From assembly GCF_014197915.1 (NCBI RefSeq), contig NZ_JACIGK010000015.1:19323-83322 (forward strand): a stretch of DNA of 64,000 bases. Direction: 5' to 3'. How positions within the stretch are numbered: position 1 is the stretch's first letter; every line of letters begins with the position of its first letter. Origin of the DNA: Roseospira visakhapatnamensis (lineage in GTDB: Bacteria; Pseudomonadota; Alphaproteobacteria; Rhodospirillales; Rhodospirillaceae). The position numbers and the translations under genes are program-made. Positions 34,648-36,399 of the stretch are shown here, in pieces. The notes under the pieces are model-generated. The model searched no databases and had not been told where the DNA came from. It was given only the letters and a program-made list of their open reading frames with translations.

Positions 34648-35106
34648 TCACGCGCGGTGATAGGGGTGTCCCTCCAGGATGCACTGGGCACGGAACACCT
34701 GCTCGGCCAGCATGGGCCGCACCAGCATGTGCGGCCAGGTCATCGGGCCGAGCGACAGCACCAGGTGGGCGCGCGCCAGAACCGCCGGGTCGTGGCCGTC
34801 GGCGCCGCCGATCAGGAACGCCACGGTGCGCGTTCCGGAATCGCGCTGGCGTCCCAGGTGCTCGGCCAGGGCCTCGCTGGACAGCGGCCGCCCGGTGCCG
34901 TCCAACACGACGACATGGGCATCGCCCGGCGTGGCGTCCAGCAGCAATCGTCCGTCCCGGGCACGCCGTTCTGCCACCGGCAGGGGCCGGCGGTCGTCGA
35001 CCTCGCGCACCGTCAGCGGCCACCGCAGGCGCTCGGCGTAGGCCGTCAGGAGGTCGGCCTCCGGACCGCGCCGGAGCCGCCCGACGGCGATCACCAGCAG
35101 GTTCAT
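34648..35106 (-). CDS. rlmH: 23S rRNA (pseudouridine-1915-N3)-methyltransferase
   Basis: The 152-residue SPOUT methyltransferase modifies helix 69 of 23S rRNA. It has LIGGADGHD, the knotted C-terminus LSLGPMTWPHMLVRPML, and the ending EQVFRAQCI plus GHPYHRA. Length matches the family. It lies 46 bases after rsfS, the normal order in alphaproteobacteria. Confidence 0.97.
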   Translation of the reverse strand: MNLLVIAVGRLRRGPEADLLTAYAERLRWPLTVREVDDRRPLPVAERRARDGRLLLDATPGDAHVVVLDGTGRPLSSEALAEHLGRQRDSGTRTVAFLIGGADGHDPAVLARAHLVLSLGPMTWPHMLVRPMLAEQVFRAQCILEGHPYHRA

Positions 35107-35152: not shown

Positions 35153-35617
35153 TCATCGGGTGGCGACCATCAGGCCCGGTCCCGTGGCGGCCGCCGCCGA
35201 CGACATCGCCGGCGTCACCACCGCCGGGGAGAGGGCCCCGTCCGGCAGGGTCCCCCGGGCGGGCGCCGGCACGCTCGGCAGGCCCCACATCTTTTCCAGG
35301 TTGTAGAAGGCGCGGACCTCGGGGCGGAACAGATGCACGACAACGTCCCCGGCATCGATCAGCACCCAATCGCACTGGGCGGCGCCCTCCACCGAGGGAC
35401 GCAGGCCGACCCCCTTCAGCGCCTCCACCAGGTGATCGGCCAGGGCGCCCACGTGGCGGGCCGACTGGCCCGAGGCGATGACCATGGCGTCGGCATAGTC
35501 GGTCTTGCCCGCCAGGTCGATAGAGACCAGATCCTCGGCCTTATGGTCGGCGAGGCTGGATTCGATGAGTCCGACGACGTGGCCTACGTGCGCCGGGTCG
35601 AAGGTTGCGGTGGGTAT
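35153..35617 (-). CDS. rsfS: Ribosomal silencing factor RsfS, probable AUA start codon
   Basis: RsfS binds ribosomal protein uL14 and blocks subunit joining. Conserved text runs KAEDLVSIDLAGKTDYADAMVIASGQSARHVGA, then CDWVLIDAGDVVVHLF and FYNLEKMWG (residues 33-120). The frame upstream of MVIASG stays open back to a TGA at 35632-35630 but has no ATG, GTG or TTG. Starting at the ATG at 35485 would delete about 44 residues, including a conserved core strand. An ATA at 35617 lies 7 bases after AAAGGACAG and gives a natural-looking N-terminus (MPTATFDPAHVG if read as Met). The last 35 residues are an Ala/Pro tail. The family call is secure; the start is inferred. Confidence 0.9.
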   Translation of the reverse strand: MPTATFDPAHVGHVVGLIESSLADHKAEDLVSIDLAGKTDYADAMVIASGQSARHVGALADHLVEALKGVGLRPSVEGAAQCDWVLIDAGDVVVHLFRPEVRAFYNLEKMWGLPSVPAPARGTLPDGALSPAVVTPAMSSAAAATGPGLMVATR

Positions 35618-35691
35618 GGGTCTGTCCTTTCATGACACGAGGGGTCCCAACGGAGGGTCCCGGGAAGGGTCCAGGGCTGTTCGGGTCGTTT

Positions 35692-36330
35692 TCAGGCCGG
35701 CTCGCACGGCGACGCCGCCGCTCCCAGGCCGGCCCGGATCGCCGTGGCCGAGGCGGCATGCCGGCGAATGGGCAGGAACACCCAGGCCGGCGGCGGCGAG
35801 TCGGCCAGCCGCGTGGCGGCGCCCAGCGCCAGCCGATGGCCGGACAGACGGCGCGCGGCCGGCGCGGAGACCGAGACCAAAGAGTACCCCGGCCGGTCAA
35901 ACACCGCAACCGGAACGGTTTCCAGGATGGCGGTCCAGGATCGCCAGCGATGGAACTGTGCCAGATTGTCGGCGCCCATCAGCCAGACGAAGCGAACACG
36001 CGGAAAGCGCCGCCGCAGGGCCCTCAGGGTGTCGATGGTGTAGCGTGTGCCCAGGGCCGCCTCGATCCCCGTGGGCACCAGGCGCGGATGGCGCCGCGCC
36101 AGGGCCTGGGCGCTGGCCAGGCGCGTCGCCTGGGAGGCCATGGGATGGCCCGCCTTGAGCGGATTGCCCGGCGAGACCAGCCACCAGACCTGATCCAGGG
36201 CGAGTCGCCGCAGGGCCTCCCGGCCGATGTGGCGATGGCCCTCGTGGGCCGGGTTGAACGATCCCCCCAGCAGACCGACGCGGATGCGGCGGCCGTCTCC
36301 ATAGGGGGGTGGGCGCAGGAAGCGGGACAT
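35692..36330 (-). CDS. nadD: Nicotinate-nucleotide adenylyltransferase
   Basis: The 212-residue enzyme adenylates nicotinate mononucleotide in NAD synthesis. It has the nucleotidyltransferase motif GLLGGSFNPAHEGHRHI, TRYTIDTLR, LMGADNLAQFHRW and, near the C-terminus, ASATAIRAGL in the place of the usual ISST-x-IR motif. Start set at the ATG giving MSRFLRPPPYG; two GTG codons lie 4-5 codons upstream. It is the first gene of the leftward nadD-to-rppH cluster. Confidence 0.95.
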   Translation of the reverse strand: MSRFLRPPPYGDGRRIRVGLLGGSFNPAHEGHRHIGREALRRLALDQVWWLVSPGNPLKAGHPMASQATRLASAQALARRHPRLVPTGIEAALGTRYTIDTLRALRRRFPRVRFVWLMGADNLAQFHRWRSWTAILETVPVAVFDRPGYSLVSVSAPAARRLSGHRLALGAATRLADSPPPAWVFLPIRRHAASATAIRAGLGAAASPCEPA

Positions 36331-36399
36331 GCAGGCCACCACGGGGCAACCAGGTGGGCAGGGGGGCAGGCGAACCGGGACGTCCGGGACGGCGTGCCG

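Follow-up and report, generated by a model that had tools for sequence, protein, structure and literature searches.

The gene for ribosome silencing factor RsfS in the analyzed DNA, a stretch of 64,000 nucleotides from Roseospira visakhapatnamensis (hereafter the window), is very probably translated from an AUA codon at position 35617, placed behind the putative Shine-Dalgarno (SD) motif AAAGGA. This codon belongs to a class discriminated against by IF3 that has been kept among relatives, and it would likely work at low output and in connection with IF3. The position of the codon, its SD motif, the conservation of the codon class, and the parallel with infC were observed directly in the genomes compared. 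We infer from them initiation at AUA 35617 together with a low output, dependence on IF3, and a physiological use.

Results

The proposed rsfS coding sequence lies on the minus strand, as do all features named below, and extends from ATA 35617 to the stop codon (35153..35617). It was identified by its open frame and by matches to the family profiles TIGR00090 (108.9 bits, cut-off 56.9) and PF02410 (104.5 bits, cut-off 21.6). The gene is flanked on both sides, on the same strand, by nadD upstream (35692..36342) and by rlmH downstream (34648..35106), both recognized by NCBIfam and Pfam matches, which is the neighbourhood of RsfS (iojap, YbeB). It is single-copy in the genome of the window. The solved structures nearest in sequence are 3ups (an iojap-like protein) and 28ye (ribosome silencing factor S). 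Past the end of the domain match, the protein continues for approximately 43 residues (35153-35284), among which Ala, Pro, and Ser are abundant.

On the minus strand, the frame reads TGA (35632-35630) AAG GAC AGA CCC ATA (35615..35617) CCC ACC GCA ACC. The TGA closes the frame upstream. As the sequence-only reading had stated, no ATG, GTG, or TTG is found in frame between this TGA and ATG 35485, the first such codon, which lies 44 codons 3' of the ATA. With the frame translated from 35629, residue 22 or 24 is the first of the domain match, corresponding to 17–19 residues after ATA 35617 and 25–27 residues before ATG 35485. A start at ATG 35485 would therefore truncate the RsfS domain, and the earlier claim that homology reaches upstream of this ATG was borne out. 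The proposed SD (35625..35630) is located 7 bases 5' of the ATA and scored -11.9 kcal/mol, in line with the suitable spacing previously noted. Another ATG (35631..35633) overlaps the TGA and is out of frame with rsfS.

The gene was present in 58 of the 60 genomes searched, with that of the window counted. Within the genus (six genomes), the start column holds ATA in the window and in loci L004 and L005, and ATC in L003, L006, and L270. In genome G005, the locus is broken between two contigs, as L002 and L270, of which L270 was inspected by eye. The out-of-frame ATG occurs at the same offset to the ATA or ATC in the window, L005, and L270, and is missing in L003, L004, and L006. The sequence-only reading had proposed an alignment of relatives as a check, and ATA, ATT, or ATC was indeed found at the same column in the genus, the family, and the order.

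Start codons were called in the interval between 75 and 8 codons ahead of the core, by choosing the in-frame ATG, GTG, TTG, CTG, ATA, ATC, or ATT codon with the best SD, which had to score -7 kcal/mol or lower. The order set for this caller comprised 57 of the 58 genomes with rsfS. ATA was called in 25 of them, ATC in 16, and ATT in 11, a split with a possible error of one or two counts, as nearer candidates (ATT and ATA) exist in L030 and L257. The remaining genomes gave one CTG, one ATG, and three without a call; GUG or UUG starts were called in none of the 57. In the wrong frames, the caller returned few codons of the ATA/ATC/ATT group (frame +1: ATA/ATC/ATT 4, canonical NTG 9, CTG 6, uncalled 38; frame +2: 4, 6, 5, and 42, respectively), and the difference between 52/57 in frame and 4/57 in frame +1 was highly significant (Fisher, 2e-21). 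Of the 52 calls, 47 sit 13–25 codons before the core, while calls more than 25 codons away (L020, L030, L247, L255, and L257, as well as L021 for CTG) may be misplaced.

When the best in-frame SD position was taken irrespective of the codon that follows, ATA, ATC, or ATT was found in 34/57 order genomes, CTG in none, and NTG in one, compared to a background of 3.1% for ATA/ATC/ATT (binomial, 1e-36). This codon-agnostic test understates, since it recovered infC poorly, with just 7 ATA and 2 ATC among the 12 commonest codons of 29 loci. An upstream in-frame stop with no ATG, GTG, or TTG between it and the called ATA, ATC, or ATT was present in 22 of the 57 genomes. In 20 of these 22, any subsequent ATG, GTG, or TTG ahead of the core has an SD weaker than -5.

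The exceptions in the order were L012, L021 (CTG), L249, L266, and L265 (ATG). L249 and L266 represent two genomes of one genus with sizes of 1.3–1.4 Mb, for which an ATG start is possible. In L012 (genome G035), nine consecutive C separate the rsfS core from an SD-preceded ATA that lies in another frame, which reflects either an error in sequencing or slippage in the genome itself. In part of the order genomes, such as L007, L008, L010, L017, and L028, an in-frame ATG precedes the ATA or ATC by a few codons and could possibly be the start. Judged from these calls, the order appears to hold the codon class at the predicted rsfS start while the exact codon drifts. Like genes of the infC kind, rsfS has at its predicted start a codon of the AUA, AUC, AUU, or CUG class behind an SD (in the window, ATA behind AAAGGA), and its relatives preserve this class.

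An even sample of the class contained 114 genomes, 106 of them with the gene, and the 104 absent from the order set were analyzed. ATA, ATC, or ATT was called in 41, CTG in 16, and NTG in 16, and 31 were uncalled. Canonical calls came mostly from genomes of 2 Mb or less (13/16). Genomes above 2.0 Mb (n = 66) gave ATA/ATC/ATT 34, CTG 14, NTG 3, and uncalled 15, compared to 7, 2, 13, and 16 for those of 2.0 Mb or less (n = 38). The median GC content of the locus was 0.64 for ATA/ATC/ATT, 0.58 for CTG, 0.45 for NTG, and 0.47 for uncalled loci. Each wrong frame yielded 21 calls from the 104 genomes (NTG 9 and 7, ATA/ATC/ATT 6 and 8, CTG 6 and 6), so some of the in-frame calls will also be due to chance.

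Among named loci (79 of 80 analyzed), the calls were ATA/ATC/ATT 29, CTG 38, NTG 7, and uncalled 5, with 27 and 11 calls of 79 in the wrong frames. An upstream stop with no ATG, GTG, or TTG before the called codon was found in 31 of the 79 (CTG 18, ATA 9, ATC 3, ATT 1). Examples are Magnetospirillum molischianum DSM 120 (ATT), Paramagnetospirillum kuznetsovii (ATC), Magnetospirillum aberrantis and Kiloniella laminariae (both ATA), and, with CTG, Bosea sp., Kaistia soli, Caulobacter radicis, and Brevundimonas. Six additional alphaproteobacterial loci were all called CTG. Outside the class (n = 21), the calls were NTG 6, ATA/ATC/ATT 1, CTG 1, and uncalled 13. The codon-agnostic test was weaker beyond the order, with ATA/ATC/ATT 14, CTG 8, and NTG 11 in the class (n = 104), 18, 16, and 3 in the named set (n = 79), and 1, 1, and 4 outside the Alphaproteobacteria (n = 21).

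Two features of individual loci were also observed. Seven Caulobacteraceae loci (L107, L122, L126, L153, L156, L162, and L167) share a near-fixed leader of GGAG plus 6 or 7 bases ending in CG, followed by CTG, which is more uniform than an SD alone requires. The RsfS proteins of L128, L135, L140, L160, L174, L197, and L255 carry a long N-terminal tail rich in Lys and Ala before the core.

For comparison, the start of infC was called in the order (30 loci, 29 usable). Made without an SD threshold, these calls gave ATA 22, ATC 6, and ATT 1, that is, 29/29. Across the infC loci (L284 on contig 29 of G000, the genome of the window, and L271-L404), ATA was far commoner than ATT, with 22/29 ATA in the order. 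infC of E. coli starts at ATT. In 105 class genomes in which infC was paired with rsfS, infC was called ATA/ATC/ATT in 88 and NTG in 6, and was uncalled in 11. The 88 genomes had rsfS calls of ATA/ATC/ATT (38), CTG (16), NTG (10), and none (24), and the six with NTG infC had two NTG, two ATA/ATC/ATT, and two uncalled rsfS. The idea that a canonical infC accompanies a canonical rsfS was not supported by these numbers, as only two of the six genomes followed it and ten genomes with ATA, ATC, or ATT in infC had an NTG call for rsfS. A coupling of the two genes is consequently not universal.

The neighbouring rlmH served as control gene. Among loci with an rlmH match starting no later than profile position 4, the first-column codon was ATG, GTG, or TTG in 46/50 order, 61/72 class, and 71/73 named loci. 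As a control for the SD-based caller, rlmH failed (50 order loci: ATG/GTG/TTG 37, CTG 7, ATA/ATC/ATT 6), because many rlmH genes have no strong SD. With rlmH canonical and rsfS and infC not, the pattern belongs to these two genes and not to the locus.

Discussion

Initiator tRNA pairs imperfectly with AUA, AUC, AUU, and CUG, and such pairings are rejected by IF3, as established in E. coli. In the mechanism we propose, initiator tRNA would read AUA 35617, with AAAGGA as the ribosome-binding site, and rsfS would be kept on AUA, AUC, AUU, or CUG in the order and in most of the larger-genome class members sampled. The poor start codon would keep RsfS scarce. As IF3 rejects such codons, RsfS synthesis would rise, together with that of IF3, whenever there is too little free IF3 for the 30S subunits present. 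The two subunit-separating factors, IF3 on the 30S and RsfS on the 50S subunit, would then obey one signal.

By its predicted start, rsfS joins infC among the genes with an IF3-discriminated start codon. An IF3-sensitive expression of rsfS is plausible, because infC carries the same start class in the same genomes. Through the shared class, the ratio of free IF3 to 30S might govern both proteins in Alphaproteobacteria. That a circuit of this kind operates across much of the class, with IF3's own start-codon discrimination gating the translation of IF3 and RsfS and an IF3 shortage relative to 30S raising both, is advanced tentatively, and we would expect it to fail somewhat sooner than to hold. 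The discussion section of PMC13009471 ties IF3 discrimination to non-canonical starts. For E. coli, PMC13246957 describes that RsfS binds uL14 and blocks subunit joining on the 50S subunit, and that RsfS and IF3 rise together in a rimM mutant. The joint rise does not speak for the start codon, because rsfS (ybeB) of E. coli starts at UUG (TTG in the RefSeq annotation and sequence; also given in PMC10917681).

The same start could have a different use. The poor codon may be kept merely for the scarcity of RsfS, with dynamic control by IF3 playing no part, and we place the probability of this reading only a little short of even. A weak codon class with drifting identity is equally expected under selection for low output, the E. 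coli gene uses another weak start, and AUA and AUU starts of Staphylococcus aureus gave approximately 10% of the output of AUG according to PMC13009471. The ten genomes with a canonical rsfS call beside an ATA, ATC, or ATT infC also fit selection for scarcity alone. However, GUG or UUG would be a simpler way to a low output, yet these were called in 0/57 order genomes, and NTG in only 3/66 class genomes above 2.0 Mb. Moreover, scarcity alone leaves the parallel with infC without a reason.

ATA, ATC, and ATT are also the codons of isoleucine, and some relatives have an upstream extension of the open frame with in-frame ATGs. It is nonetheless very unlikely that the ATA is an ordinary conserved Ile codon with translation beginning further upstream. 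For the window, we rejected this reading owing to the upstream in-frame TGA, with no ATG, GTG, or TTG before the ATA, and the same arrangement holds for the 22 of 57 order genomes to which the window belongs. ATA accounts for 25/52 codons at the start, whereas among the 352 Ile codons within the rsfS cores of these loci it occurs 16 times (Fisher, 4e-15), and in five genes of the window it makes up only 1/41 Ile codons. Other families place CTG, which is no Ile codon, after the SD. Finally, ATG makes up 164/516 ATN codons in the core but 1/53 at the start position (Fisher, 2e-7), a contrast that is partly due to the codons permitted to the caller, ATG having been among them. At the start position, the third base varies freely apart from G, as expected under selection against a canonical start.

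Translation from ATG 35633 with a +1 frameshift into rsfS, which the sequence-only reading had listed as an alternative, is even less probable. Its attraction lies in the constant offset of this ATG to the ATA or ATC in the window, L005, and L270. A programmed +1 frameshift calls for a conserved out-of-frame start that feeds the downstream frame, and the ATG was present in just three of the six genus genomes; L003, L004, and L006 have none and yet retain ATC or ATA behind an SD. In addition, ATG 35633 would need another SD further upstream, because AAAGGA sits behind it, and the pattern across the order centres on ATA, ATC, and ATT. A sequencing or assembly error in the window, in which one base gained or lost would link ATG 35633 to the rsfS frame, is next to impossible, as the other genus genomes show the same frame and codon class and L005 and L270 share even the out-of-frame ATG. 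With the frame and ATA or ATC kept in the genus and the ATG limited to half of it, the frameshift and the error were both rejected for the window.

Initiation of rsfS at AUA 35617 resembles several known cases. The closest is infC, likewise a gene for a ribosome anti-association factor with an ATA, ATC, or ATT start behind an SD in the same genomes. IF3 differs in acting on the 30S subunit and discriminating start codons itself, whereas RsfS binds uL14 on the 50S subunit. Autoregulation by IF3 is known for E. coli infC; for rsfS, control by IF3 is proposed here. E. coli pcnB is said to start at AUU and would be a further gene besides infC with such a start, although it encodes no ribosome factor. 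The autoregulation of infC is also mentioned in the discussion of PMC13009471. The S. aureus genes ccpN (AUA) and cvfC1 (AUU) have conserved non-canonical starts as well, accompanied by a strong SD. As described in PMC13009471, these were mapped by ribosome profiling and their lowered output was measured; it reached approximately 10% of the AUG level in poor medium and, for ccpN, as much as 30% in rich medium. They are other genes in another phylum, and their start and output were measured, whereas the rsfS start is predicted from sequence. E. coli rsfS is the same gene with a weak start codon, but UUG is a canonical bacterial start, unlike AUA, AUC, AUU, and CUG. In Caulobacter, ribosome profiling assigned CTG starts to 0.7% and other near-cognates to 0.25% of coding sequences, according to PMC4117421. 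A search of the open-licence literature found no description of an AUA, AUU, AUC, or CUG start for rsfS. The kind of feature is therefore known, and the gene and its reach appear to be new.

Few bacterial genes are known to use starts of the AUA/AUU class. In rsfS, the class is held through the order, is frequent in the Alphaproteobacteria, and runs parallel to infC. Wherever the frame has no ATG, GTG, or TTG upstream of the core, annotation limited to these codons must mis-start rsfS, and structures, mutants, or fusions could consequently rest on wrong N-termini. A ribosome-silencer gene with an infC-like start suggests a simple coupling of the anti-association factors of the 30S and 50S subunits. 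If the proposed circuit is true, RsfS would be a downstream target of the IF3 signal, conserved far beyond one genus.
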